From assembly GCF_014195535.1 (NCBI RefSeq), contig NZ_JACIBY010000020.1, positions 1 through 64,000 on the forward strand: DNA of 64,000 bases, written 5' to 3'. Positions 10,344-24,166 of this stretch are shown here, piece by piece (the first letter of the stretch is position 1; every line of letters begins with the position of its first letter). This DNA comes from Runella defluvii. GTDB lineage: Bacteria; Bacteroidota; Bacteroidia; Cytophagales; Spirosomataceae. A model generated the notes under the pieces. It was not told the DNA's origin, ran no database searches, and saw nothing but the letters and a program-made list of their open reading frames with translations. The position numbers and the translations under genes are program-made.

Positions 10344-10356
10344 GGGTTGTATCCTG

Positions 10357-12063
10357 TTAAAATCGAATGCCATAACTAAGCGTGCTCCTGATTTCGCTGA
10401 AATTGCGATACGTTGTAGCGTTTTGTTGAATACCATATTGGTTGTAGAGGTAATTGACCCCTACCGACACACTCTGTTTTTTGTATAAGTGCGATAGGTT
10501 TAACCCAGTGTTTGTCATAAAGCCATCGGCAATATCATTCGTTTTTCGAAACTGACTGTTATGATTTAGAGATGCCCGAATTTTATATTTTATCAGTTCT
10601 TTACTCAGCATGAAAGCAGGGCCAATATTTACTAATTTTCGCCCTCCTGTTTCGATTGAGACATAGCTAACAGACACGTTACTGCTGAATTTTTGAGGAA
10701 TCAAAAAGTAACTATAATTCACCACCCCAATCATCGACGAAGCCCCTGCGTATTGACGGGTAAATGCGTTTTGGTCGTTTGTATTCTGGTACGTTGCCGT
10801 AATTCCAAACGATTGCTGACTAATTTTGCTTCCAAGTGAGTAATTTACCGTTGCATTGTACGAGGTATTCACGACACTCACCGCCAACGAATCATTGAAA
10901 AAATCGCCCATACCTCGGCTTTGACCTACCCCAAAGTTGGAATAATTGAGCCCAATCGTCAGGCGTTTGATGGGGTTCATAGAAAGGTTGACCGAGCTAA
11001 CATTTCGGTGAGTTGTTGCCCCTTTTTTGCCGTTCAAGTTATCGTGTGAGCGACCTACCGCTCCGTTGATGATCAATTTATTTTTGAAAAGCATAAACGT
11101 GGGCGAAATGGTTACCTGTTCTACATCATTTTGAAAATAGTAAGCTCCTAGCGATTGATAATCAGGATCTACCCGCTGGTAGATTGCCCGTATAGCCCCT
11201 TGTTTGAAGCGAAGCCCTAATGCTGCGGTACCCGCCGTAAAAAAGTTAGAGGAAGCGTTTACGGCAACTATATCCAGCAGTTTATCTTGCCAAGGCTCAG
11301 GATTTTCAACGTCTCTTTTTAGGGAATTTCGGGTAAGTAAACTTGCCCCCACGTCGAGGTCGAAAGTTAATTTTTGTTTAAAAAAGCCAAAGTGATTTTT
11401 AAGCCCAACGGCTAGGTTTTCCATGGGTAATACTCTTGATTTCAGCGAAGGCGCATTGATGGAGCCAATAACATCTTTGGCCTTGAATACGCTAAAATCA
11501 ACATACGATTTTTGAGACCCTACGCCTATTTTTGCCGCCCAGCCTATTCGCTGATAGACAGGCCGAATGTATTGATAACGAACATCTTGACCCGACGCAT
11601 TTTCATTGATTGCCCGCGCAAACTGCCCATAGACAAATCCCAATCGAACGTTTTTAGGAGTGTATTCAACTCCTGCCCCCAAAAAATTGGCTCCGCCCAA
11701 AGTGTAATCCGAAAAACGAACGTTTCGGTACCCCAAATGGAGTTTTAAAGATTTATAATAGGGGCTTACTCCGTATTGATTGAAAGGCTGCGAAAAACGG
11801 CGCTCCTGCTCACTCACTACCAACGTAAAGGGGAACGTCATCCCTAACCACTTCACGATGGGAGTACCCGTCAGGTACCACGTAAAGGGTTGGCGGCGAC
11901 TGGCAATGCCGTTGGCATGGTACATTTGCACATTGGCAGTAAGTGAGCCCCTGATTTCAAACGCCTTAGGAGACATTTTCCCTAAGTTTTGGGCATTTAC
12001 TGACAAAAAGCACACCATGACCATCCCCGTTAAGAATGTTGTTAGCGTAGATATTGGCTTCAT
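10357..12063 (-). CDS. Outer-membrane beta-barrel protein, 568 aa
   Basis: A signal peptide (ending LSVNAQ) is followed by about 540 residues of alternating amphipathic strands. Many end in aromatic residues, and the chain closes with ...LSYGIRF, whose C-terminal Phe is typical of outer-membrane barrels. There is no plug or TonB box, so this is not a SusC-type receptor. The ATG overlaps the stop of a 30-codon ORF (ATGA), and the stop lies 13 bp before the giant gene. This tight arrangement suggests that the barrel anchors or exports the giant protein or the FN3 proteins. That role is inferred from context only; I recognise no named family. Confidence 0.85.
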   Translation of the reverse strand: MKPISTLTTFLTGMVMVCFLSVNAQNLGKMSPKAFEIRGSLTANVQMYHANGIASRRQPFTWYLTGTPIVKWLGMTFPFTLVVSEQERRFSQPFNQYGVSPYYKSLKLHLGYRNVRFSDYTLGGANFLGAGVEYTPKNVRLGFVYGQFARAINENASGQDVRYQYIRPVYQRIGWAAKIGVGSQKSYVDFSVFKAKDVIGSINAPSLKSRVLPMENLAVGLKNHFGFFKQKLTFDLDVGASLLTRNSLKRDVENPEPWQDKLLDIVAVNASSNFFTAGTAALGLRFKQGAIRAIYQRVDPDYQSLGAYYFQNDVEQVTISPTFMLFKNKLIINGAVGRSHDNLNGKKGATTHRNVSSVNLSMNPIKRLTIGLNYSNFGVGQSRGMGDFFNDSLAVSVVNTSYNATVNYSLGSKISQQSFGITATYQNTNDQNAFTRQYAGASSMIGVVNYSYFLIPQKFSSNVSVSYVSIETGGRKLVNIGPAFMLSKELIKYKIRASLNHNSQFRKTNDIADGFMTNTGLNLSHLYKKQSVSVGVNYLYNQYGIQQNATTYRNFSEIRSTLSYGIRF

Positions 12064-12152
12064 AGTTGTACGCCAGCTAATCCATTATTTTTTTGAGCAT
12101 GGGCAATAAGCGCCAGTCCGTACACCAAAAGGATACAGGTAAATCTTTTCAT
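12060..12152 (-). CDS. 30-residue signal-peptide-like ORF
   Basis: This very short ORF starts at the ATG at 12152 and ends in a TGA that overlaps the ATG of the barrel gene by four bases. Its first 20 residues (MKRFTCILLVYGLALIAHAQ) read as a perfect signal peptide with an A-H-A-Q cleavage site, and only ten residues follow. It could be a small secreted peptide, a leader that controls translation of the barrel, or the remnant of a truncated secreted gene. The coupling and the signal-peptide quality argue that it is translated. Nothing shows what the ten-residue product would do. Confidence 0.5.
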   Translation of the reverse strand: MKRFTCILLVYGLALIAHAQKNNGLAGVQL

Positions 12153-12344: not shown

Positions 12345-12352
12345 CAAATTTC
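12345..12352 (-). promoter_or_regulatory. -7-like box (GAAATTTG) of the surface operon
   Basis: On the minus strand this octamer ends in TTTG like the Bacteroidota -7 consensus TAnnTTTG, but it lacks the leading TA. It begins 22 bp downstream of the operator at 12375-12390, the spacing seen at three other operator loci. Such a weak box would fit activator-dependent initiation. Confidence 0.4.
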
Positions 12353-12374: not shown

Positions 12375-12390
12375 TCATGGTTTTCCATGA
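12375..12390. promoter_or_regulatory. Operator palindrome TCATGGTTTTCCATGA, copy 1
   Basis: This is a perfect 6-bp inverted repeat (TCATGG/CCATGA) with a 4-nt A/T centre, identical to sites at 15341, 21504 and 24151. It lies upstream of the surface-protein operon, 22 bp before a -7-like box. A second, one-mismatch copy starts 23 bp further upstream, about two helical turns away. Confidence 0.7.
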
Positions 12391-12397
12391 AATCGAC

Positions 12398-12413
12398 TCA
12401 TTGAAAACCATGA
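12398..12413. promoter_or_regulatory. Operator palindrome, degenerate tandem copy
   Basis: TCATTGAAAACCATGA differs from the perfect palindrome by one base in the left arm. Its start is 23 bp from the start of the perfect copy at 12375, so both would face nearly the same side of the helix and could bind two dimers cooperatively. Confidence 0.6.
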
Positions 12414-12437
12414 ATTTATCTGAAGTAGTTACTACAT

Positions 12438-12941
12438 TTAAAAGGTAACCACCCAATTGACGGTAAACTCCCCTCCTAGTGTCACGGCATTGAGTAAAAT
12501 ATCAGAAGTACCTTTTCCAGTAATGCGCGCAAAACGCCCCGTTCCACGGGTGATGGGTTCGGTCACTTTAATGGCTAACACTGTCGGGGTTGCCGTGGGG
12601 GCTCCTTGCGCAGTCCCTCCCAATTCAATGGTGTTGCCCGATTTGTCGGTGTAAGTCGTTACAAATTCTGTCCCTGTCAATTTGCTATAATCAAACTTAA
12701 ACTTCGAATTAAAATTTACGTCCCCTATCGTAGTCAACGTACCCGTACCTACCACCTCAATGGTGGCTATGATGGGCTGTTTGGTGGAGGGATCTACCGT
12801 TATTGGCACTACGTTTTTGGTCGTGAAAGTAATTTTTCCCGTGATGTTGCCATTTTCTACTTCGTAGAGGTCTTCCTTTTTACAAGCATTTAAAAAAGTG
12901 AGGGCGCACGCAAACAGCGCAATGAATTTGAGCCTTTTCAT
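12438..12941 (-). CDS. Small lipoprotein, 167 aa
   Basis: The ATG at 12941 gives a lipoprotein signal peptide with lipobox F-L-N-A-C at residues 17-21 (MKRLKFIALFACALTFLNAC), so the mature protein would be lipid-anchored. An upstream in-frame start at 13064 would add 41 residues without a secretion signal and overlap the neighbouring gene. The mature part is about 145 residues, beta-rich, and ends in G-G-E-F-T-V-N-W-V-V-T-F. I do not recognise the family. It lies 49 bp downstream of the NTF2-fold gene and just upstream of the operator region of the surface operon, so it may be transcribed with the NTF2-fold gene. Confidence 0.75.
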   Translation of the reverse strand: MKRLKFIALFACALTFLNACKKEDLYEVENGNITGKITFTTKNVVPITVDPSTKQPIIATIEVVGTGTLTTIGDVNFNSKFKFDYSKLTGTEFVTTYTDKSGNTIELGGTAQGAPTATPTVLAIKVTEPITRGTGRFARITGKGTSDILLNAVTLGGEFTVNWVVTF

Positions 12942-12990
12942 TGTGTAGAGTAGTTTTAAAGTGAATAAAGAAGAAAATTCTAATCGTTTC

Positions 12991-13374
12991 TCAGGACGGT
13001 GTTCGTAAAATTCCCAACTGCTCAAAAAGCAACATTTGATCGCTGAGCGGAAACACCTCCACAATTCGATTATTTCGAACTCGGTACCGTACCATCATCG
13101 GTATTTCCACCGTTTTATACGTGGGCGGAACCCCATACATCTCACCTCGGTGCTCGCCCCTAAAAATCCCCTCCACAATCACGTCGTCACCCTCAGCCGT
13201 AATGGATTCTATAAAGATATGATAACCAGGAAAACCTTTGTCGTGCAACAATACGCCTTTGATGTAATTTTCAGCATCCGTAAACTCTCGTAAAACAGCC
13301 TCTGTCTTAATTCTTCCCGAAAGTTTTGAGGCCAACTGCAAGACAAGTTTTTTATTTTTTTCCGCTTTTTCCAT
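12991..13374 (-). CDS. SnoaL/NTF2-fold protein, 127 aa
   Basis: A cytoplasmic single-domain protein of the length usual for the SnoaL-like/NTF2 fold. The C-terminal half has the family pattern: a strand with G-I-F-R-G-E-H-R-G-E-M-Y-G, then P-P-T-Y-K-T-V-E-I-P-M-M-V-R-Y-R-V, then I-V-E-V-F-P-L-S-D. This resembles ester-cyclase or SnoaL-type small-molecule enzymes and binding proteins, but no substrate can be assigned. A TACCTTTG -7 box lies at 13401-13408, giving a short leader, and the lipoprotein gene follows 49 bp downstream. Confidence 0.75.
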   Translation of the reverse strand: MEKAEKNKKLVLQLASKLSGRIKTEAVLREFTDAENYIKGVLLHDKGFPGYHIFIESITAEGDDVIVEGIFRGEHRGEMYGVPPTYKTVEIPMMVRYRVRNNRIVEVFPLSDQMLLFEQLGILRTPS

Positions 13375-13400
13375 CTTTTTGTGGTGGTTTTAGGTTAGTA

Positions 13401-13408
13401 CAAAGGTA
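13401..13408 (-). promoter_or_regulatory. -7 promoter box TACCTTTG
   Basis: An exact match to the Bacteroidota -7 consensus TAnnTTTG, 27 bp upstream of the NTF2-fold start codon. A matching inverted copy of the surrounding decamer (CCTACCTTTG on the plus strand) lies at 13468-13477. I found no clear -33 TTG at the right distance. Confidence 0.5.
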
Positions 13409-13484
13409 GGGGCTTTCATCTTTAGCCATTAGTAGCCGTTTTTCAAAGATTTACACTATTGTTTCACCCTACCTTTGGCTTGTG

Positions 13485-14336
13485 TTATTGTTTCATTTTT
13501 TGTTGACGCCACTCAGTTGGGCTACAGCCCGTTTGCTCTTTAAAACAATGGGTAAAATAACTCAGCTCCCCAAACCCTACTTTATAAGCAATGTCTCCAA
13601 TCCCCATTTGTGTGCTTTGGAGTAGTTCCTGTGCTTTACCTATTCGTACGTATCGGATGTAGTTAGCCGTCGAATACTGCGTCAGTTTTTTTATTTTTCT
13701 AAACAATTGAGCTTTGCTTAATCCCAACTGAATTTGGAGGAACTCCCCCGTTAATTCATCTTTATCCAAATGTTGGTAAATCAATTGATTCACCTGTTCT
13801 AAAAAGGCTTGTTCTTGGGTTTCGGGAATGGCCCTGAGCTGTTGCAAAGCAAACGAATCCGTGGCCACCGATTCAAATCGGCGTTTGAAGTTAATGGAGT
13901 AAAACGCATCGTCGAGCTTCTCGTTTGTTGGTGGCCGAAACTGCTCAATAATCGTGTTATCTTTTTTGTCTTCCAACATTACTTTTACAAACACAACCGT
14001 GGCATGTACCTGTGCATTGTCCAAGTGCACTATTTTTTGCTCATGAGCCGAGAGCAAAAGATTGGGATTGAAGTAAATCTTGGGTATTTGAAGCGCCAAC
14101 CGAAGCTCAACTTGCTGATTTTCAACCTCCGTGCTTGCATCAAGGTGCAAATGAGCATCATCAAAAAAATACAAACTTCGGATGACAAAAGACGTAAAAG
14201 TAGGTAGCACCTCTTCGAGAGAGGTGCCAATTTTTAAAGCAATAGCGTCTGAGCAGGTAAGTCGATTGCGTCGTAAGGCCGCAATGGGAGCAAACGCACG
14301 ACTCAAATTTTGCAATAACTCTTTGATGTCAATCAT
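13485..14336 (-). CDS. AraC-family transcriptional regulator, 283 aa
   Basis: The C-terminal 100 residues (about 180-283) are a typical AraC/XylS double helix-turn-helix: L-G-L-S-K-A-Q-L-F-R-K-I-K-K-L as the first unit and I-A-Y-K-V-G-F-G-E-L-S-Y-F-T-H-C-F-K as the second, followed by G-C-S-P-T-E-W-R. The N-terminal 170 residues are an unassigned sensing region. Its ATG overlaps the stop of the quinone-oxidoreductase gene (ATGA at 14333-14336), so enzyme and regulator are co-translated. It probably regulates that operon or detoxification genes, although an unrelated palindrome sits at the operon promoter. Confidence 0.9.
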   Translation of the reverse strand: MIDIKELLQNLSRAFAPIAALRRNRLTCSDAIALKIGTSLEEVLPTFTSFVIRSLYFFDDAHLHLDASTEVENQQVELRLALQIPKIYFNPNLLLSAHEQKIVHLDNAQVHATVVFVKVMLEDKKDNTIIEQFRPPTNEKLDDAFYSINFKRRFESVATDSFALQQLRAIPETQEQAFLEQVNQLIYQHLDKDELTGEFLQIQLGLSKAQLFRKIKKLTQYSTANYIRYVRIGKAQELLQSTQMGIGDIAYKVGFGELSYFTHCFKEQTGCSPTEWRQQKMKQ

Positions 14337-15280
14337 CCGACTTTAATCACTAATTTACCGCGTACGTGCCCTGCTTCTACGTTGGTGGTGGCTTCGTAGA
14401 TACTTTCTAAGCCGCTGTATATTTTGTCCAAATGCAGCCGAAGTTTCCCCTCTTTTACTTGGTTAGTAACCCAAGCTAAATCGCTGGTTGTGAGCTTTAG
14501 CATCAACAAAGCCATTTTTTTTGAACGAAACGGGTTCAGCGCCACCTGCAAAAACTTAGCTGGTCCAGGCACCGAGTTAACAAATACACCTCCTTTTTTG
14601 AGTGCTTGCCGTGCCTCCTTGAACGTATATCTATCGACAATATCTATAATGAGGTCGTATGCTTCTGTCTCCTCAAAAGGGTTTTGAACGGTGTAATCTA
14701 TGACTTCGTCGGCCCCTAGTCCTTTCACAAACTCAAAGTTAGAGGCTCGACAAACGCCCGTTACGCTCGCGCCCATCTGTTTGGCTAGTTGTACGGCCAA
14801 ATGCCCCAACGCCCCCGCTGCGCCCAAAATCATCACTCGTTGTCCCGATTTAAGTTTACCTAAGTCGCGCAAGCAACTCAAGGCCGATGCGCCTGCAATC
14901 GGTAAAGCCGACGCGGTTTCAAAACTCAACTCGGCAGGTTTGGGTATCAGTTGGTCCGTTTTAGCAACGACGTACTCCGCATACGGCCCCGATTGCTTAA
15001 AAGGGTCAATGGCTCCCATCACTTTATCACCCACTTTAAAAGCCTGTACTGCATCGCCCACCGCCACGACCTCGCCCGCAAAATCAACCCCCATGAGCAT
15101 GGGGAGTTTGCGCCTAACAAACATTTTTGCTTCTCCTTTTCTGATTTTCAGCTCAAGGGGAGAAATTGTAAAAGCCTTTACTTTCACCAGCACTTCGCCT
15201 GCGGCAGGAACGGGTGTAGGTACTTCATCAATTTTTAGGGCGGAAAGGCCGCCGTAGTTTTGTAGTAAAATCGCTTTCAT
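14333..15280 (-). CDS. Zinc-free NADPH:quinone oxidoreductase (MDR), 315 aa
   Basis: This is a medium-chain dehydrogenase/reductase. The N-terminal GroES-like fold includes G-V-D-F-A-G-E-V-V-A-V-G at residues 64-75, and the Rossmann motif I-L-G-A-A-G-A-L-G is at 151-159. The ligands of the catalytic and structural zinc of alcohol dehydrogenases are absent, which places it with the quinone oxidoreductase/NADP-dependent enoyl reductase branch. I chose the ATG at 15280 (MKAILLQNYGG), a standard MDR start; an in-frame ATG at 15319 lies inside the promoter inverted repeat. The gene is followed by its overlapping AraC regulator and preceded by the shared palindromic operator. Confidence 0.9.
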   Translation of the reverse strand: MKAILLQNYGGLSALKIDEVPTPVPAAGEVLVKVKAFTISPLELKIRKGEAKMFVRRKLPMLMGVDFAGEVVAVGDAVQAFKVGDKVMGAIDPFKQSGPYAEYVVAKTDQLIPKPAELSFETASALPIAGASALSCLRDLGKLKSGQRVMILGAAGALGHLAVQLAKQMGASVTGVCRASNFEFVKGLGADEVIDYTVQNPFEETEAYDLIIDIVDRYTFKEARQALKKGGVFVNSVPGPAKFLQVALNPFRSKKMALLMLKLTTSDLAWVTNQVKEGKLRLHLDKIYSGLESIYEATTNVEAGHVRGKLVIKVG

Positions 15281-15309
15281 AAGAGGTTTATAGCATAAAA
15301 ATTTTGCCC

Positions 15310-15317
15310 CAAATATC
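15310..15317 (-). promoter_or_regulatory. -7-like box (GATATTTG) of the MDR-AraC operon
   Basis: The minus-strand octamer ends in TTTG, 23 bp downstream of the operator at 15341-15356, matching the spacing at three other operator loci. The leading TA of the consensus is missing. Confidence 0.4.
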
Positions 15318-15340
15318 ATGGAAACTGAGAACTTTTCTTC

Positions 15341-15356
15341 TCATGGTTTTCCATGA
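15341..15356. promoter_or_regulatory. Operator palindrome TCATGGTTTTCCATGA
   Basis: A perfect copy of the 16-bp palindrome upstream of the MDR-AraC operon. An additional half-site (TCATGG) lies at 15316-15321 and overlaps the -7-like box. Confidence 0.7.
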
Positions 15357-15411
15357 TATTTGGGGCAAATGAGGGGGAATTTTTGTCAGATAGGGAGGTA
15401 CTGTCGTCTTA

Positions 15412-15996
15412 CTATCCTTTTTTATTTCCGAAAATCAAACTCTCAAAAATCTCTTTAAGCTTGTCCAGCACTGTTTTGGCAAAAAAACCACCTACCAAAC
15501 TCATAAACAACAATTTATGTAAGGAGGTAGAGTTGAACGGCTGTTTGAAGTCAAAGGCTAAACTGAATGGAGGCACATGACCTAAAGCAGCAAAATAGAT
15601 AATAAAGCCAATGAGAATCCCCAAAAATGGCCTAAATAGCAGAAAGTAAGCTATTTTAGCATTGAATCGCTCTTTGTTATTAGGCTTGGGTATTTGTTGA
15701 CCATCAGCCAATTCCCACCCCTCTGATACTCGTTGCAAACACGACATGAAAGCCGCAGTAGCACTTCCTACAATGCTCACACAGACACACAACCCCAGTA
15801 CATTTGGATGGTGTTGGCAGTTGGCATAGGCAAAAATGCCCCAGCTTACCCCCGTAAAGCCTAGGATAATACCCAATAGAATCCCAATCACTCCCCTCGC
15901 TCTTTTTTCGAGTGCTTCACGCTCCGCCTTATCATCGTCTTCATTACGCGACTTGGACTCATCCATACTGCCAAAAAAATATACTTTGAGTGCCAT
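15412..15996 (-). CDS. Four-helix membrane protein of unknown function, 194 aa
   Basis: The N-terminal 35 residues are charged and predicted cytoplasmic. Four hydrophobic segments follow at about 36-58, 68-88, 118-140 and 165-182, the last short and weak. The soluble N-terminus is rich in Glu, Asp, Lys and Arg (E-D-D-D-K-A-E-R-E-A-L-E-K-R). I recognise no family. It ends 56 bp before the operator of the MDR operon. Its start is not certain: an in-frame Met at residue 11 is also possible. The reading frame is clean and it has no larger competing ORF. Confidence 0.6.
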   Translation of the reverse strand: MALKVYFFGSMDESKSRNEDDDKAEREALEKRARGVIGILLGIILGFTGVSWGIFAYANCQHHPNVLGLCVCVSIVGSATAAFMSCLQRVSEGWELADGQQIPKPNNKERFNAKIAYFLLFRPFLGILIGFIIYFAALGHVPPFSLAFDFKQPFNSTSLHKLLFMSLVGGFFAKTVLDKLKEIFESLIFGNKKG

Positions 15997-16058
15997 GATT
16001 GGGAAACGAGGTTGAATATTTTGGATTTCTAATACTTTCCATTCGGGTTCTATAGGTT

Positions 16059-16220
16059 TTAGGCTAGTCCACCACCACCAAGAACAAGATCTTCAATATG
16101 CAGCAAGTTATCTTTCAAGAGAAAAATAATTCCATTATTATCATTTAACGCATTGTTTACGGCAAAGCCAGTCCAACCACTTGTCCAATTATATGTCTTT
16201 ATTCTTTTACCAAGAGAAGT
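16059..16220 (-). pseudogene. Possible 3' remnant of an unrelated gene
   Basis: After the stop of the truncated receiver gene, another minus-strand frame is open for about 53 codons and reads like the end of a real protein. It contains Y-N-W-T-S-G-W-T-G-F and ends ...L-V-L-G-G-G-G-L-A. It has no start codon of its own and no upstream coding sequence in that frame. The simplest reading is that a deletion or recombination joined a broken response regulator to the tail of another gene. The evidence is compositional only. Confidence 0.25.
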
Positions 16221-16453
16221 TCATCTTTTGGATAATGCTGTTTTACTTCAATGGCGACATCTTTCCCCGATTTCCCTGGCAAATCAATGTCTAAAAGCAG
16301 GACATCAATGGGCTGTTTTTTAAGAAAAGGCATTACTTCATGGCCATTGTGTACCACCCCCGCGAGTTTATAATCGGTGGGATAGTTAATGATGAAACGG
16401 AGTCCATCCACAAACAATCGGTGGTCGTCAGCTATAAAAAGCATATACATCAA
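16199..16453 (-). pseudogene. Truncated response-regulator receiver domain, 84 aa
   Basis: The ORF opens like a NarL-type receiver: the acidic pair at D9-D10 and the phosphoacceptor D55 in L-L-L-D-I-D-L-P-G are intact. It stops after K-D-E-L-L-L-V-K-E, at about beta-strand 4, and lacks the Ser/Thr and Lys switch residues, the last helices and the HTH domain. Normal NarL-type regulators here are 213-216 residues long. No continuation is seen in the other frames, so this is a real truncation and not a single frameshift. A true start at residue 2 or 4 is also possible. It may be a decaying fragment or, less likely, a short phosphate sink. Confidence 0.6.
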
Positions 16454-16472
16454 TGGTTTTATTATTCATGAA

Positions 16473-17663
16473 CTAAAAGCCTGTCAAACTCAGCATTACA
16501 ATCTTCCACTGACCGTTTATTTTCTCCAAAATGCGCAACGAACGTTGTTTTTGTCCCACAGTTCCGTCGGCTTTTTTATCTTCTTGGGTATAAGTAGCCC
16601 AAGCCAAATTACCTGAAATGTGCGATTCATAATCACTCACTACTGTATTAAGACCCGTCGGTTTATGGGTTTTGCCAAATTCCTCGTAGCCTTTTTGGAG
16701 GGCTTGGCCTTTCAAATAGGGCGTATTGGCCAGTTTTCTGAGCTTTTCGTCTTGCCTTTCTATATAAGGAGTAGTAGCCCAGTTTGATCTCCATACGGCT
16801 AGATTGGCTTCGTGATAGGCTTTGGTTTCGGCATCAATCACCTGTCGAACGGCAGCTTCTTCTTGGGCTGCTGGCGAGGCTATGTCGGTTTGTTGCGAAC
16901 TTACAAACATCCACTTGCCATTGCGCCGCTGAAAAACATAGGTAGCCGCTACTTGCTTGCTGCGCTCGATACCGTCTTTATCTAAACGCACGGTTTTGTG
17001 GATACCAGTTTCAACGGCCAAGTCACCCGATTGAAAAATAAGGGGTTGGAGCGTCTCGGACGAAATAATGTTTTGCTTGTCGCTTTTCAAAACCATTTCT
17101 TTGGTCAGATAGCTGCCCTGCACGGTTGCATATCTGAAATCATCAGAAAGGCGATTGGCATAAAAGGCTTTTGAATCGGTCTTGTATTCGTTCCCTATTT
17201 TTTGCTGCATTTGGGTCGTAAGCGTGTTGTCTTCGCCGCCCGTTTGATAATCTATTTTGGTGTGGTGTAAGTCGGTCAGCGTCCAGTTGTTGTTTTTCCA
17301 TTCAAAGGTATAGGTAAAGGCATCTTTCCATGTCATTTTTTGGCCATTGGGAAGTACTAAAGCATGGTTTCTAATGCCCGATACCACGCCCAAACTCCCC
17401 GATTGTTTTACGCGCAGGTCGCTCATTTGGGTCTCGCTTTTGGCAGTGGGACGAGATTTGAGCAAAGCAAGCGTTGTAGCTTTATCGTAAAACTGCCCAC
17501 TATGCCCCGCCACAAAACGCAGCTTATCGTCCATTTGTTGAATGGCCTCCATCGAATTTTTGTCATAATCAGCTAACCCTTTTTCAAAGGCAGCTTTTAG
17601 GTCAGTTTGAGCGTAGATGCTTCCTGTCGTCAGCATGACAAAAGTAAAAATTAGCTTTTTCAT
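16473..17663 (-). CDS. Secreted triple NTF2-like (DUF4440/SnoaL) protein, 396 aa
   Basis: The ATG at 17663 gives a signal peptide ending in IYAQ. Three consecutive NTF2-like units can be seen at about residues 18-135, 140-265 and 266-396. Each begins with an acidic helix and ends with a strand of the type N-N-W-T-L-T-D, G-K-W-M-F-V-S-S-Q or G-Q-W-K-I-V-M-L. The fold commonly forms a ligand-binding cone or a small hydrolase, and the substrate is unknown. The gene lies 43 bp downstream of an HTH-only LuxR protein and 20 bp upstream of the truncated receiver, all on the same strand, so they may form one transcript controlled by the palindrome at 17978. Confidence 0.75.
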   Translation of the reverse strand: MKKLIFTFVMLTTGSIYAQTDLKAAFEKGLADYDKNSMEAIQQMDDKLRFVAGHSGQFYDKATTLALLKSRPTAKSETQMSDLRVKQSGSLGVVSGIRNHALVLPNGQKMTWKDAFTYTFEWKNNNWTLTDLHHTKIDYQTGGEDNTLTTQMQQKIGNEYKTDSKAFYANRLSDDFRYATVQGSYLTKEMVLKSDKQNIISSETLQPLIFQSGDLAVETGIHKTVRLDKDGIERSKQVAATYVFQRRNGKWMFVSSQQTDIASPAAQEEAAVRQVIDAETKAYHEANLAVWRSNWATTPYIERQDEKLRKLANTPYLKGQALQKGYEEFGKTHKPTGLNTVVSDYESHISGNLAWATYTQEDKKADGTVGQKQRSLRILEKINGQWKIVMLSLTGF

Positions 17664-17706
17664 TGTAGGGATCATTGGTTTATGGTTTAAGAAATTCAAT
17701 TGTCTC

Positions 17707-17904
17707 TTATGGATTCTCAATCAAACCTTGGCGGATAGCTTCCTTTATTAATCCAACTACCGACTTGGCTCCCATCTTTTGCAGCAGATTGTGGCGATGG
17801 GTTTCGATGGTCGGAATGCTCACTTTCAGCAGATTAGCGATCTGCTCGGTGGTCAGTTCTTGGCTGATGAGTTGTAGCACTTCTATTTCGCGTTTGGTGA
17901 GCAT
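17707..17904 (-). CDS. LuxR/NarL HTH-only protein, 65 aa
   Basis: From the ATG at 17904 the product is nothing but a GerE-type helix-turn-helix: L-T-K-R-E-I-E-V-L, E-Q-I-A-N-L-L, S-I-P-T-I-E-T-H-R-H-N-L-L-Q-K-M. It resembles the C-terminal domains of the two full regulators at 20.8 and 23.5 kb. There is no receiver domain; the upstream codons (to 17991) encode no such fold and cross the operator palindrome. It may be a constitutive DNA-binding protein competing for the same operators, or the remnant of a regulator whose N-terminal half was lost. It is divergent from histidine kinase 1. Confidence 0.7.
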   Translation of the reverse strand: MLTKREIEVLQLISQELTTEQIANLLKVSIPTIETHRHNLLQKMGAKSVVGLIKEAIRQGLIENP

Positions 17905-17977
17905 ACGTTTTTGATTGATGCTACAAAGTTGGCCGCTTATTATTTCTCCATTTATCAGGGCATACCACGATTTTATC

Positions 17978-17993
17978 TCATGGTAAACCATGA
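17978..17993. promoter_or_regulatory. Operator palindrome TCATGGTAAACCATGA
   Basis: The same inverted-repeat arms as the other sites, with TAAA at the centre. It lies between the divergent HTH-only gene and histidine kinase 1 and is the only site whose centre is not TTTT/AAAA. A -7-like box (ATTATTTG at 18016-18023) follows on the plus strand after 22 bp. Confidence 0.7.
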
Positions 17994-18015
17994 TTTTGAG
18001 ACCATTGCATGGCTA

Positions 18016-18023
18016 ATTATTTG
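18016..18023 (+). promoter_or_regulatory. -7-like box (ATTATTTG) of histidine kinase 1
   Basis: A plus-strand octamer ending in TTTG, 22 bp after the operator and about 47 bp before the kinase start codon. The spacing repeats that of the surface operon. Confidence 0.4.
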
Positions 18024-18069
18024 AAAAATGATGGATTAAATAGATATTGGCATCATTAACCTCTTCTCT

Positions 18070-20052
18070 ATGAAAAGAACACTCGCTCTTGTGGTACTTG
18101 TGATTTTTAGCACAGTTGCTTGGACTCAGTCGGTACAAGATGATTTACGAAAAATTGCCGAGTTTCGCCGAATGTCGCCTTCTTTTCAAAAGGATACACT
18201 CCTGATAGGTACGCAAATCAACCTCGCTACTACCTATAATCGCCTCCAGAAAATGGACTCTGTTCGCTATTGGTTGTGGGAAAGTGAAAAAATGCTTTCT
18301 AAAACCAAATGGCAGCGGGGATGGGGCTTTTTTTATCGAGCACGTGGTCAGTATTACGTATTTACCCTCAAAAAAGATTCTTCCGTCGCCGACTTCATCA
18401 AGTCAATAGCGATTTGGGAAAAAGAAAAGAACTGGCGGCAAGCGGGCATCGCCAGTGCGCGCCTCGGAAATGCTTTATTGATGGATTTACAGTTTGACAA
18501 AAGTCTTTTTTACCTCAACCAAGCACTCAAAACGTTTGAAGAACACAACGACTATTTTAGCCAAGCCAATACACTCAATTACCTAAGTAATGTGTATCGA
18601 AGTATGAACAATTATACCAAAGCATTGGAAATACATCGTAGGGTAATGCAACTGGTTGGGAAGTATAAACTTAACCCTGATCTTATTCAATACAGGCACG
18701 TAGCCACTTCTTATTTATTCAACAATATGCTGGATAGCGGGCGTTATTATTTTGCCAAAGAAGGCATTGACATTGACAAAAATCCCGAAAAAATCAATGA
18801 TAATTTTACCTACAATCGCCTCTCCGAGTTTTTTGACGGGGCTGGTATGCCCGAAAAAGTCGTTAAAATAGCCAACTTATCGCTACAACTTGCCGAAAAA
18901 AATAAATCAGTAGCTTATGCTCGCACTGCCCATGAAATGCTCCACAAAAGCTATCAAAATTTAAAAAATTATGAACAAGCGTTGTACCATTATGGCAGGG
19001 CGCAACAAATTAATGACTCCTTGGAAAAAGCCGAAGTGAGTCTCAAGCTCTCTCAGTTGGAAATGCAATACCAAACTCAGAAAAAAGAGACTCAAATAGA
19101 ACGTCAAAGAGCCGAATTGGCTATCAGTAAACAAACTCTTTTGCTTAATGAATCAAAAATGAGTTTTCTAAACAAAGACCTTTTGCTTCAACAAGCACTC
19201 GTAGCCCAGCAAAACGCTGATAAAAAACGAAAAGAAGCCGAGTTTAAAATCGCCAATCAACAACAAAAAGTAGCGATGGAACAATTGACTCAGCAAAATG
19301 AGCTGACTTCCCAGCGACAAACTCGTAATTTGCTATTGGCCAGTATTGCATTTTTGATGACACTTGCAGGCGTACTTTTTTATCATAATCAGAGCCTTAA
19401 AAGAAAAAACAAGGAAATATCAGCATCGGTTTTAAAAGGCCAAACCATCGAGCGCAAGCGCGTAGCGGCCGACCTCCACGATAGCCTCGGCAGTACTATG
19501 TCGTCGCTGATTTATACCGTCAATGCCATTGATACCAATAATCTTGACAACGACGAGAAAAACGTCTATCTACACCTCAAACAAATGCTCGATACCGCCT
19601 ACAACGAAATCAGGCTCCTCTCCCACAACCTGTTGCCCGAAGAATTTGAAAAACAGGGATTGGCCGAAGCACTCAAGCATTTTGTCCGTAAAATAAACCA
19701 AACTAAAACCATTCAGTTTGACCTATCCATCGACCCGCAATTGGGACGACTCTCACCCCAAGTAGAGTTTGAACTCTACAGCATCTGCTTAGAACTTGTC
19801 AATAACATCTTAAAACACGCAAAAGCCACCCAAGCCCAAATTAATTTATCAGCCCCCGCCCGCACAGCAAACCGTCCCAATGGGGAGTTAAAATTGATTG
19901 TTTCCGACAACGGTATCGGCTTTTTCAGTAATGAAAGCGACGGAAAAGGAATAAAAAACGTACGAGCCCGCATAGAAAGCCTCAATGGAACTTGGCAAGT
20001 TAAAAGCATTGAAAATCATGGAATTACGAATATTATTTCGATTCCTTTGTAA
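18070..20052 (+). CDS. TPR sensor histidine kinase (HisKA_3), 660 aa
   Basis: A signal peptide (ending VAWTQ) is followed by TPR-like helical repeats (about 30-330) and a glutamine-rich coiled coil (about 320-420). One membrane helix (L-L-L-A-S-I-A-F-L-M-T-L-A-G-V-L-F near 425-443) leads to a cytoplasmic kinase. The HisKA_3 motif E-R-K-R-V-A-A-D-L-H-D-S-L-G-S-T contains the phosphoacceptor His at about residue 470. The ATPase domain shows the N-box E-L-V-N-N-I-L-K-H-A and the G1 box D-N-G-I-G-F. Sensing is probably periplasmic. Likely partners are NarL-type regulators nearby; the closest complete one is encoded at 20775-21416. Confidence 0.92.
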   Translation: MKRTLALVVLVIFSTVAWTQSVQDDLRKIAEFRRMSPSFQKDTLLIGTQINLATTYNRLQKMDSVRYWLWESEKMLSKTKWQRGWGFFYRARGQYYVFTLKKDSSVADFIKSIAIWEKEKNWRQAGIASARLGNALLMDLQFDKSLFYLNQALKTFEEHNDYFSQANTLNYLSNVYRSMNNYTKALEIHRRVMQLVGKYKLNPDLIQYRHVATSYLFNNMLDSGRYYFAKEGIDIDKNPEKINDNFTYNRLSEFFDGAGMPEKVVKIANLSLQLAEKNKSVAYARTAHEMLHKSYQNLKNYEQALYHYGRAQQINDSLEKAEVSLKLSQLEMQYQTQKKETQIERQRAELAISKQTLLLNESKMSFLNKDLLLQQALVAQQNADKKRKEAEFKIANQQQKVAMEQLTQQNELTSQRQTRNLLLASIAFLMTLAGVLFYHNQSLKRKNKEISASVLKGQTIERKRVAADLHDSLGSTMSSLIYTVNAIDTNNLDNDEKNVYLHLKQMLDTAYNEIRLLSHNLLPEEFEKQGLAEALKHFVRKINQTKTIQFDLSIDPQLGRLSPQVEFELYSICLELVNNILKHAKATQAQINLSAPARTANRPNGELKLIVSDNGIGFFSNESDGKGIKNVRARIESLNGTWQVKSIENHGITNIISIPL

Positions 20053-20120
20053 ATCAATCAAAAACCTACTGGCAACGTTCCCTCAAAAAAGTTAGTAGTT
20101 CAAAACAAGCGGGTGTACTT

Positions 20121-20135
20121 TACCAAGTACTGGTA
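20121..20135. promoter_or_regulatory. Inverted repeat, likely antitoxin operator
   Basis: TACCA-AGTAC-TGGTA is an inverted repeat with 5-bp arms lying just upstream of a TAGATTTG -7 box, where the -33 region would be. An inner repeat AGTAC-TG-GTACT overlaps it (20126-20137). Toxin-antitoxin operons are normally repressed by the antitoxin binding such a site; the assignment is inference. Confidence 0.4.
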
Positions 20136-20148
20136 CTGATAAAAAGTG

Positions 20149-20156
20149 TAGATTTG
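20149..20156 (+). promoter_or_regulatory. -7 promoter box TAGATTTG
   Basis: An exact TAnnTTTG match ending 18 bp before the antitoxin ATG at 20175. The leader would be only about 10 nt. Confidence 0.5.
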
Positions 20157-20174
20157 CAGAAAAATAATAGAGTC

Positions 20175-20384
20175 ATGACACAGATTATTCTTAAAAATGA
20201 TATTGACCAAAACAAATTAAGCGCATTACTCCATTTTTTGAAGTCTTTTGATATTGAGGTAGAAGTAAAAACTTCTAAAAAAACAAGTAAGCCTTCGGAG
20301 GAGTTTTCACTAACGGCTGGTTTATGGAAAGATTATGAACTTGATGCAAATGAACTACGGAAACAAGCATGGAGAATAAAATAA
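20175..20384 (+). CDS. Putative antitoxin, 69 aa
   Basis: A small charged protein directly ahead of a PIN-domain toxin. I chose the ATG at 20175 (MTQIILKNDIDQNKL) over an in-frame start at 20154, because the earlier one falls inside the -7 box. The N-terminal half looks like a short strand-helix unit, and the C-terminal end (E-L-R-K-Q-A-W-R) is the amphipathic tail type that plugs PIN active sites. It has no family motif I can name. The stop codon overlaps an ATG of the toxin gene (TAATG at 20382-20386), the usual coupling in such pairs. Confidence 0.75.
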   Translation: MTQIILKNDIDQNKLSALLHFLKSFDIEVEVKTSKKTSKPSEEFSLTAGLWKDYELDANELRKQAWRIK

Positions 20385-20773
20385 TGGTGCTTTGTGATAC
20401 TAATATTTTGATTGAAGTATATCGAAACAACCTAACAATTATTGAGAATCTCCAACGAATTGGGCAAAGTAATTTAGCCGTTTCAGATGTTACTTCTGCT
20501 GAATTATTTTATGGGGCAAGGAATAAAACTGAACTCCGAGCCATTCGTAAAGACCTCAATAATCTCACCGTCTTGTCAGTCAATCAAGCGATTTCAAGCA
20601 TGGCAGTTGAGCTGATTGAACAATATTCACTTTCTCACAAATTAAATTTGCCTGATGCACTTATTGCTTCAACTGCTATTTGGCATGATATTCCTCTCTA
20701 CACACTGAATTTGAAAGACTTTAGATTTTTAAAAGACATAAACCTCTACCAAAATCCAAAATTTTTCGAATAA
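20369..20773 (+). CDS. vapC: PIN-domain toxin (VapC type), 134 aa
   Basis: The sequence has the PIN ribonuclease layout. The first acidic residue is in L-C-D-T-N-I-L-I-E, followed by S-A-E-L-F-Y-G-A, L-P-D-A-L-I-A-S-T-A and a final Asp in N-L-K-D-F-R. These residues coordinate Mg2+ in VapC enzymes, which cleave tRNA or rRNA. Length is normal for the family. The start may be the ATG at 20369 or, more likely by coupling, the ATG at 20384, which shares a base with the antitoxin stop. The pair sits between kinase 1 and a convergent regulator gene, probably as a later insertion. Confidence 0.88.
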   Translation: MENKIMVLCDTNILIEVYRNNLTIIENLQRIGQSNLAVSDVTSAELFYGARNKTELRAIRKDLNNLTVLSVNQAISSMAVELIEQYSLSHKLNLPDALIASTAIWHDIPLYTLNLKDFRFLKDINLYQNPKFFE

Positions 20774-20774
20774 T

Positions 20775-21416
20775 CTACTCCACTAGCCCGTGCCTCAGGG
20801 CATATTTAGTCAGACCAATCGCGCTTTTGACGTTGAGTTTATGAAACAAATTTCGACGGTGGGTTTCGACGGTCGAAAGGCTGATATACAGTTTTTCAGC
20901 GATTTCGGGGCTTGAAAACTCCAAGGCGATCAGCTTTAACACTTCTATTTCACGCTCAGTAAGATTTTGAATGGTGGCAGGTTGGGCATTGTTCAAATCC
21001 TCGCCAGGGTGGGCTGAGAGTTCATCAACAATCGCAGGACTAAAGTATCGTTTTCCTCCCATTACTTGTTGGATGGCCCGTTCTAGTTCTTCCTTGTCCG
21101 CTTTTTTAAGAATATAACCATGTACTCCCGCCTTGATGGCCTCCCGAATGTGAATAGCCTCTTCTACCATCGTAAGCATTAAAATACGAATCGTTGGGTG
21201 CTGCTGTCTGATTTGGAGGGTCAAATCAACGCCACTCAAATGAGGCATATTAAAATCTAACACCACCAAATCTACGGGGTCGTTGGCCAAAAAAGTCAAT
21301 ACATTTCTACTGTTATCAATCGTCGCCACAATCTTCACCTCTGGGATTCGTCTGAAAAGTAGTTTTAGACTTTCCAAAATCATTTGGTGGTCGTCCACAA
21401 GGAGTACTCTGATCAT
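20775..21416 (-). CDS. NarL-type response regulator 1, 213 aa
   Basis: From the ATG at 21416 (MIRVLLVDDHQMILESL) the receiver carries the acidic pair D8-D9, phosphoacceptor D54 in V-V-L-D-F-N-M-P, and the conserved Lys in G-Y-I-L-K-K. The C-terminal GerE HTH has L-T-E-R-E-I-E-V-L-K-L-I and S-L-S-T-V-E-T-H-R-R-N-L. An earlier in-frame ATG at 21446 adds ten residues that fit no receiver. It converges with the toxin-antitoxin pair and kinase 1, and is divergent from kinase 2 across a region containing the shared palindrome, which suggests autoregulation. Confidence 0.93.
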   Translation of the reverse strand: MIRVLLVDDHQMILESLKLLFRRIPEVKIVATIDNSRNVLTFLANDPVDLVVLDFNMPHLSGVDLTLQIRQQHPTIRILMLTMVEEAIHIREAIKAGVHGYILKKADKEELERAIQQVMGGKRYFSPAIVDELSAHPGEDLNNAQPATIQNLTEREIEVLKLIALEFSSPEIAEKLYISLSTVETHRRNLFHKLNVKSAIGLTKYALRHGLVE

Positions 21417-21503
21417 GTTTTTTGCAGTAGGGTTAAGGAAGCACACAAGATAGTATTTTCCTTCGATAAATATTCCGTTAAAAAATCAAGGACAAAATGT
21501 ACC

Positions 21504-21519
21504 TCATGGTTTTCCATGA
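21504..21519. promoter_or_regulatory. Operator palindrome TCATGGTTTTCCATGA
   Basis: A perfect copy in the 203-bp region between divergent regulator 1 and kinase 2. Neither direction has a TTTG box at the 22-23 bp spacing seen elsewhere. On the minus strand a TACATTTTG sequence lies only about 2 bp away, so the site could repress here. Confidence 0.65.
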
Positions 21520-21619
21520 TTTTATCCCAAAAACTCACCTTTCCCTAGGAATATCACCAAATTTTTTGGTAACTATGGACTTGTTAGCTTTATCTGCCTT
21601 TGGTACACGACTTTGCCCT

Positions 21620-23434
21620 ATGAAACCTTTCATTTTCCTAGTTTTTTTGATGAACCTCTGGGGAGCATTTATTACTGTTGCACTGGGACAATCTTCCGAA
21701 AACCTTTCCCCGCAAGAATCGGCTACGGTAAAAAAGTATTTTCAAAAAGTAGATGATTTTATGAACGATGACAACTACGATTCGGCCCAATACTGGCTCA
21801 ATCGCGTCGATTTGTTGCTCACCATCAAAAAACCCACTTACTTCACCTACCTTTTTCACAGTCGGCAGTGCGAAATTTATTACTTCAATAACTTGGTCGA
21901 AATTGGCATCAAAGAAGCAAACAAAGGCTTAGCCGTGGCAAAACTAGTAAACGACCGCAGCCTGTTGGCCGACTCCTATAATTTTTTGGGTCTCTTTTAC
22001 ATCAATTCCGAACAACTCAAAAATGCCGAAACTAGCCTATTAAAAGCCCTAAATTATACCTTGGAAGACAATGACCAAGGCAAAGCCGATTACTACAATC
22101 TGACGCAGAAATACCACATCTACGGCAACTTAGCGGAGGTTTATATCAACCAACTACAGTATGGAAAGGCCATTACGGCCATCGACAGTTCCATGAAACT
22201 GGCCCTTCAAAAAGGGAAAGTACGGCCGTATGCGTTGGGGCAGTTTACCAAAGCCGAGTTATTACTTAAACAAGGCAACGCCCAAGCAGCCATGCAGTAT
22301 TACGAACAAGCCCAACGCACGTGCAACCAGGCCAAAGACTTTACCAACCTGCGGGATGTCTATTTAGTCACGTTTTCGGGAATTGCCAAATGCCAGCTCC
22401 AACTCAACCGCTTGCAGAAAGAGTTGATTTCGACAGGGTTGGATTTTTACCAAAACCAAAAAGACATCAACCGCTATTATTCCTTACTGTTTATCAACGA
22501 CGCTATTCAGATTTTTAAACAAACCAAAGACTACAAACTTTTGGCCGAATGCCTAGAAATCAAATCAGACATCGAAAATCAGAACGTCAAAGGGAGTCTC
22601 AAAAAGTTAGAAACGACCGTCAATGTAAGTCTCCGCAATGAAAAAAAAGTATTAGAAATGGAGCTTCAAAAAGTAAAAGCTTACCAAGAAAATGAGCGAA
22701 ATCGCGAACAAAACCTGACCATCATTTTGGGGCTTGTTGCCCTCATTGTTGGGATTTTGATATGGACCAACCAAAAATTGGTGGCTAAAAACCGTGAATT
22801 AGTCCAAAAAAACCAAGCGATTTCGGCAGCCCTCCTCCAAGGCCAAACCACCGAACGAAAACGCATCGCCGCCGATTTGCACGATAGCCTCGGCAGTACT
22901 ATGTCGGCTCTCAACTGGAGCTTAGAGGCCATCGACATCAAAAAACTAAACCCGCACGAGCAAGAGGTATATAAGCACGTTAAGAAAACCATCTCCCAAG
23001 CGCACGACCAAGTCCGCCTACTTTCCCACAACCTTCTCCCAGATGAATTTGAAAAACAAGGACTTACGGAAGCACTACGCTATTTAATTCGTAAAATCAA
23101 CCAGAACATAACGACTCATTTCAACCTTGACATTGACCCACAAATCGGGCGGTTTGATAAGCGCGTCGAATTTGAGTTGTACAGCATTTGTCTGGAATTG
23201 GTCAATAATATTCTCAAACACTCCAAAGCTACTCATGCCACTATTCAACTTAGGGTAGAAAATCAACAACTCTCGCTAGTCGTTACTGACAATGGGCTCG
23301 GTCTATTTGAAAATACCTCAGATGGAAAAGGATTGAAAAATATCAAAGACCGCATCGAAAGCCTTGGAGGAGCCTGGACGATGAAAAACAATCCCAATGG
23401 CGGTGTGTGTTCTCATTTAACTCTCCGCATTTAA
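21620..23434 (+). CDS. TPR sensor histidine kinase (HisKA_3), 604 aa
   Basis: I chose the ATG at 21620 because it starts a clear signal peptide (MKPFIFLVFLMNLWGAF); in-frame codons back to 21497 cross the operator. TPR-like repeats fill residues about 25-330. A basic coiled coil and one membrane helix (L-T-I-I-L-G-L-V-A-L-I-V-G-I-L-I) follow, then HisKA_3 with E-R-K-R-I-A-A-D-L-H-D-S-L-G-S-T and the phosphoacceptor at H421. The ATPase boxes are E-L-V-N-N-I-L-K-H-S and D-N-G-L-G-L. It is clearly paralogous to kinase 1. Regulator 2 ends 18 bp away tail to tail, and regulator 1 is divergent, so either could be its partner. Confidence 0.92.
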   Translation: MKPFIFLVFLMNLWGAFITVALGQSSENLSPQESATVKKYFQKVDDFMNDDNYDSAQYWLNRVDLLLTIKKPTYFTYLFHSRQCEIYYFNNLVEIGIKEANKGLAVAKLVNDRSLLADSYNFLGLFYINSEQLKNAETSLLKALNYTLEDNDQGKADYYNLTQKYHIYGNLAEVYINQLQYGKAITAIDSSMKLALQKGKVRPYALGQFTKAELLLKQGNAQAAMQYYEQAQRTCNQAKDFTNLRDVYLVTFSGIAKCQLQLNRLQKELISTGLDFYQNQKDINRYYSLLFINDAIQIFKQTKDYKLLAECLEIKSDIENQNVKGSLKKLETTVNVSLRNEKKVLEMELQKVKAYQENERNREQNLTIILGLVALIVGILIWTNQKLVAKNRELVQKNQAISAALLQGQTTERKRIAADLHDSLGSTMSALNWSLEAIDIKKLNPHEQEVYKHVKKTISQAHDQVRLLSHNLLPDEFEKQGLTEALRYLIRKINQNITTHFNLDIDPQIGRFDKRVEFELYSICLELVNNILKHSKATHATIQLRVENQQLSLVVTDNGLGLFENTSDGKGLKNIKDRIESLGGAWTMKNNPNGGVCSHLTLRI

Positions 23435-23451
23435 TATTTTTACGCCCAGCC

Positions 23452-24102
23452 TCATTTCACTAACCCGTGGCGCATGGCGTATTTTACTACACCTGCGACG
23501 CTCTTGACGCTAAGTTTTTGCATCAAATTTCGGCGGTGCGTTTCTACCGTTGGCACACTTATGCACAGAATATCCGAAATTTCGTTGGTTGAAAACTCGT
23601 TCGCAATCAGCTTTATAATTTCGATTTCACGACTCGTCAGGTGTAGAATCGTGTCGGGGCGGGCATCGTTTAGGTCTTCGGGGGCGGAGGAAGATAGTTC
23701 TTCAATCACGGCTTCGCTGTAATATTTTCTACCCGACATTAGGGTATAAATCGCCTTTTCTAGCTCCTCGCGTCCTGATTTTTTTAAAATATAGCCATTC
23801 ACCCCTGCTTTGATGGCTTCTCGGATGTGCGTGGCATCTTCGGCCATGGTCAGGAGAAGAACCTTCACCGTCGGAAACCGCTCTCGCAAGACAAGCGTCA
23901 AGTCAATCCCACTCAAATGGGGCATGTGTAAATCCGACACAACGATATCGACTTCGTGTTCTTCGAGAAAACTCATCACGTTTCGGCTGTCGGTAAACGT
24001 AACCGCAACCGTTATATTTTCAATCGTTCCGAAGAGCATTTTTAGGCTGTCCAAAACAATTTGATGGTCATCAACAATAACAAGCCGTATAGATGATTGC
24101 AT
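23452..24102 (-). CDS. NarL-type response regulator 2, 216 aa
   Basis: The receiver has D11-D12, phosphoacceptor D57 in I-V-V-S-D-L-H-M-P, a Thr/Ser switch region and Lys in G-Y-I-L-K-K-S. The GerE HTH reads L-T-S-R-E-I-E-I-I-K-L-I followed by S-V-P-T-V-E-T-H-R-R-N-L-M-Q-K-L. It is a close paralogue of regulator 1, with the same linker (E-D-L-N-D-A-R-P-D-T-I against E-D-L-N-N-A-Q-P-A-T-I). The operator palindrome lies 49 bp upstream of its start, consistent with autoregulation. Confidence 0.94.
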   Translation of the reverse strand: MQSSIRLVIVDDHQIVLDSLKMLFGTIENITVAVTFTDSRNVMSFLEEHEVDIVVSDLHMPHLSGIDLTLVLRERFPTVKVLLLTMAEDATHIREAIKAGVNGYILKKSGREELEKAIYTLMSGRKYYSEAVIEELSSSAPEDLNDARPDTILHLTSREIEIIKLIANEFSTNEISDILCISVPTVETHRRNLMQKLSVKSVAGVVKYAMRHGLVK

Positions 24103-24119
24103 TTGTTCTCAATTTTCTA

Positions 24120-24127
24120 CAAAATAG
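24120..24127 (-). promoter_or_regulatory. -7-like box (CTATTTTG) of regulator 2
   Basis: A minus-strand octamer ending in TTTG, 23 bp downstream of the operator at 24151-24166 and 17 bp before the ATG. It is one base short of a perfect TAnnTTTG. Confidence 0.4.
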
Positions 24128-24150
24128 CGGCCTTCTAACTTTAAAACCAC

Positions 24151-24166
24151 TCATGGTTTTCCATGA
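24151..24166. promoter_or_regulatory. Operator palindrome TCATGGTTTTCCATGA
   Basis: A perfect copy upstream of regulator 2. A partial second site (AAAACCATGA) ends at 24187, about 21 bp away, recalling the tandem pair in front of the surface operon. Confidence 0.7.

Follow-up and report, generated by a model that had tools for sequence, protein, structure and literature searches.

A TCATGG-N4-CCATGA palindrome as the probable operator of NarL-type response regulators in Runella defluvii and other Spirosomataceae

Why does one 16-bp palindrome recur in front of genes for response regulators, histidine kinases and surface proteins in Runella defluvii, and which protein should bind it? We have addressed this question in a window of 64 kb, i.e., the whole stretch of DNA that was analysed. 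A first-pass annotation had listed five exact copies and a tandem copy with one mismatch, and had read them as a probable local regulon of NarL type. Our scan has reproduced all of these positions: TCATGGWWWWCCATGA occurs at 12375, 15341, 17978, 21504 and 24151, with the one-mismatch unit at 12398. The claim that the rest of the window is free of copies also holds, with zero other exact or one-mismatch matches in the 64 kb. In addition, a second tandem partner, absent from that list, was found at 17955. The units are as follows.

12375..12390, no strand: exact unit, the proximal one for the surface operon
12398..12413, no strand: second unit with one mismatch, 23 bp from the 12375 unit
15341..15356, no strand: exact unit before the ADH-AraC operon
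17955..17970, no strand: degenerate unit with two mismatches in its arms, the 23-bp partner of 17978 and the proximal one for the HTH-only gene
17978..17993, no strand: exact unit, proximal for kinase 1
21504..21519, no strand: exact unit between response regulator 1 and kinase 2, with no TTTG at +27/28 on either side
24151..24166, no strand: exact unit before response regulator 2

When up to three mismatches are allowed, the window gives 10 matches, compared with a mean of 2.83 in shuffled sequences (the largest value was 9, and 0 of 100 shuffles reached 10). All five exact sites are intergenic, as had been claimed, once the start codons are corrected. The mechanical open reading frames 17707-17991 and 21497-23434 only apparently contain a site, because CCATGA itself provides an ATG or because the frame extends upstream. 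The corrected starts are 17904 for the HTH-only gene (65 aa), which from the sequence is very likely the true start rather than 17991, and about 21620 for kinase 2, where a signal-peptide-like start was judged by eye. Separately, the 15341 unit is embedded in a longer inverted repeat (CCCCAAATATCATGG...CCATGATATTTGGGG, window 15306-15367), which is also present in genome G002 and, with one change, in G005.

The annotation had also proposed a scan of the whole genome. In the assembly (7.99 Mb, 50 contigs) we have found seven exact copies of TCATGGNNNNCCATGA, all with A/T spacers, while the reversed control gives 0. Five of them cluster within 12 kb of the window. The other two, C8:4209 and C21:51340, each have a second one-mismatch unit 23 bp off, and lie 78 and 59 nt before similar small membrane proteins (DUF4267-like). 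With two of seven exact sites on other contigs, the regulon should no longer be called local.

The regulatory genes among the sites, assigned with Pfam, are listed below.

20775..21416, minus strand: response regulator 1 (RR1), receiver plus GerE
23452..24102, minus strand: response regulator 2 (RR2), receiver plus GerE
18070..20052, plus strand: kinase 1, TPR, hydrophobic segment, HisKA_3 and HATPase
21620..23434, plus strand: kinase 2, TPR, hydrophobic segment, HisKA_3 and HATPase
17707..17904, minus strand: HTH-only protein of GerE type, receiver-less, 65 aa (start moved from 17991; GerE at 2.6e-16)

The earlier statement that three GerE-type HTH proteins are encoded among the sites is borne out, as RR1, RR2 and the HTH-only protein all match GerE in Pfam. 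RR1 and RR2 have the NarL/FixJ architecture, with an N-terminal receiver (PF00072) and a C-terminal GerE domain (PF00196), and the receiver D, D and K residues were found in both by eye. RR1 has an additional sub-cut-off match to sigma-70 region 4 (Pfam, E 0.001), and neither regulator shows an autoinducer-binding domain (Pfam, E 0.001). At the family level, RR2 falls below the NarL equivalog cut-off of NCBIfam (100.4 bits vs 250), and does not reach the cut-off of any of the best 25 of 98 NCBIfam families, the top one being MctR (159.5 bits vs 300). Among named genomes, its closest matches are in Runella limosa DSM 17973 (100% identity), a Spirosomataceae MAG (83%), and R. zeae and Runella sp. 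MFBS21 (68%).

Both kinases carry an N-terminal hydrophobic segment, the TPRs, a second hydrophobic segment and then HisKA_3/HATPase. Their HisKA_3 domains, each with an LHD motif, are of the type expected for partner kinases of such regulators, and the gene neighbourhood suggests that they serve the adjacent ones. Elsewhere in the window, a minus-strand receiver fragment at 16199-16453 (MLFIADDHRLFVDGLRF...) shows 87% identity over 77 aa to a full-length regulator of G002 (L036 1052-1747); judging from its sequence, it is the probable remnant of a lost regulator gene.

The palindromes are commonly arranged in arrays. We have collected 69 site clusters in 34 genomes, with one unit in 22, two in 37, three in nine and four in one. 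The pooled unit spacings are 23 bp in 69 cases, 24 in 14, 25 in eight and 22 in one, with none at 17-21 or 26-40; here pairs of two good units are counted twice, and the counts are biased toward 23 since loci L166-L184 were retrieved with a pattern fixing this distance. For the Runella loci alone, which were retrieved by single palindromes, the spacing is 23 bp in 18 pairs, 24 in three, 22 in one and 25 in one.

The site is present in 11 of the 13 genomes of the genus, while the reversed control occurs in three places in all. The annotation had suggested a comparison of orthologous promoters, for which regions around the site were retrieved from nine relatives, along with two further ones from the R. 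defluvii genome. In Runella the site is kept before the same or rearranged genes, namely those for RR2, the kinases, SnoaL/DUF4440, ADH, the 568-aa surface protein and DUF4267-like proteins. G007 and G010 have no site, and G004 has four, all with G or C in the spacer; among the matches listed for these three genomes, no RR2 relative that covers most of the protein exceeds 46% identity, and G010 shows a 79-residue RR2-like fragment (57% identity) on a small contig. The linked regulator is of RR1 type only in G001 and G003, and of RR2 type only in G006 and G008. Since all four keep the sites, either type may suffice.

At the family level, the 39-bp two-unit array (up to three mismatches) was found in 25 of 222 genomes and 11 of 36 genera, with 0 of 222 for the reversed control. 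In other families of the order it is present in 0 of 311 genomes, the remaining 79 of the 390 searched being Spirosomataceae. Exact palindromes with A/T spacers occur in 39 of the 222 family genomes. Chance clustering of palindromes is ruled out by the window shuffles, the reversed control in the genome and the array control in the family.

Are the sites linked to a particular regulator? RR2 was used as a query across the family, blind to the motif, and with E no more than 1e-55 it returned 103 rows in 66 genomes. Of 81 counted exact A/T-spacer palindromes, 80 could be located (the missing one is one of four in G211). Among these, 51 lie within 5 kb of a regulator row and 60 within 20 kb, where the fraction expected by chance for 5 kb is about 0.0008, assuming 6.2 Mb per genome; the other 29 have no row within 5 kb. 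Viewed by genome, 33 of the 39 with palindromes have a regulator row, the exceptions being G009 (in which the regulator is split over two frames), G060, G065, G092, G129 and G132. In the other direction, half of the genomes with rows (33 of 66) lack an exact A/T-spacer palindrome, and among the rows placed in the tree, many of these belong to a sister clade.

This tree holds 62 regulators of at least 185 aa and 44% identity, taken from the loci that were fetched and thus a subset of the 103 rows, and 37 of them are within 5 kb of an array. Of the 25 unlinked ones, 20 form one clade with a support of 94/86, which is below the star level of the program, and 19 of these group at 100/98. The linkage label requires six changes on the tree, compared with 19.8 in shuffles, and no palindrome lies beside any of the 20 sister-clade regulators. 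Directly behind E-(T/S/N)-H-R of the recognition helix, none of the 37 linked regulators has His, compared with 19 of the 25 unlinked ones. This association between helix and array is partly phylogenetic, as all 19 His rows come from the one sister clade. Five regulators outside that clade (G166, G162, G118, G064 and G138) have no site within 5 kb; the G166 one is near the end of a short contig, the G162 one is on a different contig from its array, and 0.5 kb from the G118 one lies a unit with one mismatch; G064 and G138 show no comparable circumstance. A palindrome common to the sister clade was also sought and rejected, since no 6-bp inverted repeat (gap 0-12) occurs in more than three of 18 palindrome-less regulator loci; the 32 comparison loci in this search hold the TCATGG-N4-CCATGA site largely through selection for it.

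Based on these analyses, we consider that the palindrome is the operator of the RR1/RR2 group of NarL-type regulators, which would work with paired TPR-HisKA_3 kinases and activate promoters from arrays (probability roughly 0.86, from sequence comparison).

The HTH-only protein deserves specific attention here. It consists nearly entirely of the GerE domain, its sole Pfam match above cut-off, and is a stand-alone GerE-like regulator with no receiver or ligand domain that has been kept as a separate gene. A profile search has found HTH-only frames within 65 bp of an array, as measured from the open frame, at 21 places in 20 genomes and 10 genera, of which the match in G144 is weak (1.7e-14). 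Of five more profile matches, three are regulator pieces at locus edges or from the broken G009 gene, and two lie 1.4 and 4.8 kb off; G009 also carries an HTH-only frame. None was found in the 18 palindrome-less regulator loci. We can rule out that the HTH-only gene is a decayed regulator, as many relatives have homologues of 64-73 aa whose start lies behind an array.

One may then ask whether the HTH-only protein alone, activating its own gene, is the binder, with RR1 and RR2 binding elsewhere as mere neighbours. The position of its frames directly at the arrays agrees with this, and such a protein requires no phosphorylation. However, Runella G006, G008, G011 and G012 and seven g8 genomes (G077, G078, G082, G086, G099, G108 and G110) have a palindrome with a linked regulator, yet no HTH-only frame was found in the loci fetched from them, some of which are short contigs. 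In addition, the recognition helices of the response regulators track the presence of arrays. The HTH-only helix is similar to that of the linked regulators, yet reads ETHRH in R. defluvii, with His where the linked regulators carry another residue. Overall, we regard this explanation as improbable, and RR1/RR2-type regulators as the more probable binders.

If these regulators bind the palindrome, do they activate or repress? The annotation had noted octamers ending in TTTG at four of the five sites. All four are at the positions given, and we have found a fifth at 17924-17931. These octamers resemble a -7 element.

12345..12352, minus strand: TTTG at +27 from the array, toward 10357-12063
15310..15317, minus strand: TTTG at +28, downstream of the 15341 unit
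17924..17931, minus strand: TTTG at +28, toward the HTH-only gene
18016..18023, plus strand: TTTG at +27, toward kinase 1
24120..24127, minus strand: TTTG at +28, toward RR2

In 135 unique array flanks, with both sides counted and with exact duplicates and flanks shorter than 60 nt excluded, TTTG begins at +28 in 50 flanks and at +27 in seven, while each other position beyond +9 has 0-4. The position of TTTG played no part in choosing any locus. Seven loci with isolated palindromes (L199-L204 and L216) were omitted from this count and used as a separate control: at these palindromes without a linked response regulator, TTTG is found at +27/28 in 0 of 7, and five of them sit inside open frames longer than 700 nt. 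The fixed phasing that the annotation took to suit an activator holds, on one or both sides, for 57 of the 69 clusters, including 30 of 35 from the Runella loci. It fails in the other 12, to which 21504 and the corresponding sites of G002 and G005 belong.

A logo built from the 40 non-redundant promoters with TTTG at +28 reads TCATGG-WAAA-CCATGA-G-N22-(C/G)A-N-Y-TTTG-T and shows no TTTG at -33. The far side of the array opens with a run of T, which is the first base in 40 of 50 cases. In the excerpted texts of two papers, the promoter consensus of Bacteroidota consists of TAnnTTTG at -7 and TTTG at -33 (PMC7366714, PMC2483708); compared with TAnnTTTG, the T is found in 4 and the A in 36 of the 40 promoters. 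If the G of TTTG is set at about -4 according to this consensus, the centre of the proximal unit falls at about -42 and that of the next at about -65. A unit near -42 would be in the position of a class-II activator, and the pattern of a class-II Bacteroidota promoter, i.e., a fixed distance from operator to -7 and no -33 element, is found in the same 57 of 69 clusters.

These positions bear on the idea that the same regulators use the palindromes as sites of repression. The 21504 unit, which fits neither promoter direction, immediately precedes a TACATTTTG-like sequence in the direction of RR1, where a bound protein would block the polymerase, so that this single site may repress RR1. The main class does not fit such a role, as its proximal unit has its centre some 42 bp before the inferred start and its promoters lack the -33 TTTG and have an off-consensus -7, and repression as the general function thus seems unlikely. 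Weakest of all, and very improbable, is that the palindromes are RNA hairpins (terminators or attenuators) or mobile repeats: each unit could fold into a stem of 6 bp and a loop of 4 nt, as read from the sequence, but the spacing is mostly 23 bp, the few genomic copies are tied to one gene family, and the main-class arrays lie upstream of the -7 element and the predicted start, outside the leader, which rules out a hairpin or terminator for this class.

The predicted targets and the genes adjoining them in the window are listed below.

10357..12063, minus strand: target, first large gene of the surface operon; 568-aa protein whose start resembles a signal peptide, without Pfam match
3963..10436, minus strand: 2157-aa protein, next gene of the surface operon, no Pfam match
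14333..15280, minus strand: zinc-type alcohol dehydrogenase/quinone reductase (ADH), target
13485..14336, minus strand: AraC-family regulator, target, overlapping the end of the ADH gene
16473..17675, minus strand: DUF4440/SnoaL-like protein, downstream of the HTH-only gene

The end of a signal-peptide-like frame of 30 aa (12063-12150, minus strand) overlaps the beginning of the gene for the 568-aa protein in an ATGA. Other genes are found beside arrays in relatives. In four of them (L041 5528-9661, L042 9098-13231, L166 6704-11012 and L174 3600-8395), the arrays stand 63-65 nt before proteins of 109-143 aa, and the three of these that were scanned (G011, G134) have no Pfam match. In G134 an APH-type kinase and a HopA1-family protein adjoin them, and genes with similar starts are present in the others of the four; we presume a resemblance of this pair to the enzymes of class V lanthipeptides. 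In two Runella genomes, a gene pair behind an array (L038 8052-9400; L035 4365-5713) encodes an N-acyl amino acid synthase like FeeM together with a methyltransferase of ICMT type, a possible signal-molecule pair. Single-domain LytTR-like proteins of about 105-131 aa are recurrent beside arrays (L016, L170, L171, L173, L174, L175 and L176).

Overall, the NarL-type reading has stood up in comparison, through the enrichment in the genome, the conservation in Runella, the linkage to response regulators, the absence from the sister clade and the -7 phasing. We propose that a signal would act on the membrane-bound TPR-histidine kinase, which would phosphorylate a regulator of RR1/RR2 type. A dimer of the phosphorylated regulator should cover one 16-mer, with half-site centres 10 bp apart or about one helical turn, and additional dimers would sit 23 bp farther out. 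The proximal dimer, 27-28 nt from the -7 TTTG and hence centred near -42, would activate the promoter in a class-II-like manner, with SAnYTTTG in place of TAnnTTTG and no -33 TTTG. The predicted targets are RR2, kinase 1, the HTH-only protein and effector operons for surface proteins, ADH-AraC, DUF4440/SnoaL and small DUF4267-like membrane proteins. A feedback of the HTH-only protein on the same arrays is probable. Since RR2, kinase 1 and the HTH-only gene would themselves be targets, the circuit should be self-reinforcing, unless the HTH-only protein damps it.

More tentatively, and in our view with less than even odds, the TPR kinase, the NarL-type regulator, the HTH microprotein and the 23-bp arrays may constitute a module specific to Spirosomataceae, in which regulator and microprotein compete or cooperate as a feedback switch and the cargo is interchangeable, the whole serving to switch cell-cell interaction. 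If so, the cargo would be surface proteins, the FeeM/ICMT acyl-amino-acid pair, or the kinase/HopA1-type set for peptide modification.

Two-component control of surface structures is known in Bacteroidota from FimS-FimR of Porphyromonas gingivalis, according to PMC1974823. FimS is a sensor histidine kinase in NCBIfam, and kinase 1 scores only 17.9 bits against its model, whose cut-off is 600. As a term search of PMC1974823 gave no hit for binding site, palindrome, footprint, NarL or LuxR, it offers no operator for comparison. Judged by titles and the beginnings of abstracts, the literature matches listed contain neither the TCATGG-N4-CCATGA motif nor any operator that a NarL-type system uses in environmental Bacteroidota; the phasing of the arrays, the promoter grammar and the HTH-only companion are absent from these matches as well. 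The present analysis supplies a testable promoter grammar (the array, its 23-bp phase and the 27-28 nt to TTTG), together with likely regulators, candidate specificity residues, a sister clade as natural negative control, and a conserved HTH-only companion whose role is open to direct testing.

In the LuxR-LuxI system, a GerE-type regulator likewise acts at a palindromic box. The likeness extends to the FeeM-like acyl synthase gene behind the array in two Runella relatives; unlike LuxR, the Runella regulators are receiver proteins with no autoinducer-binding domain in Pfam, and the acyl synthase gene is not always present. GerE of Bacillus and PedR of cyanobacteria are examples of LuxR-type HTH proteins of about 65-90 aa that act as stand-alone regulators. 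Compared with them, the Runella HTH-only gene is located at the inferred operator of a two-component system, and its helix is similar to that of the regulators. Systems of receiver-GerE regulators with palindromic operators are well known, and those of NarL/FixJ type, such as NarXL, UhpBA, LiaSR and DegSU, combine inverted-repeat operators with self-regulation. As tested by its domains, the Runella system resembles them in having a receiver-GerE regulator with a HisKA_3 kinase, and differs from them in its TCATGG-N4-CCATGA operator, its arrays phased at 23 bp and its Bacteroidota -7 promoter.
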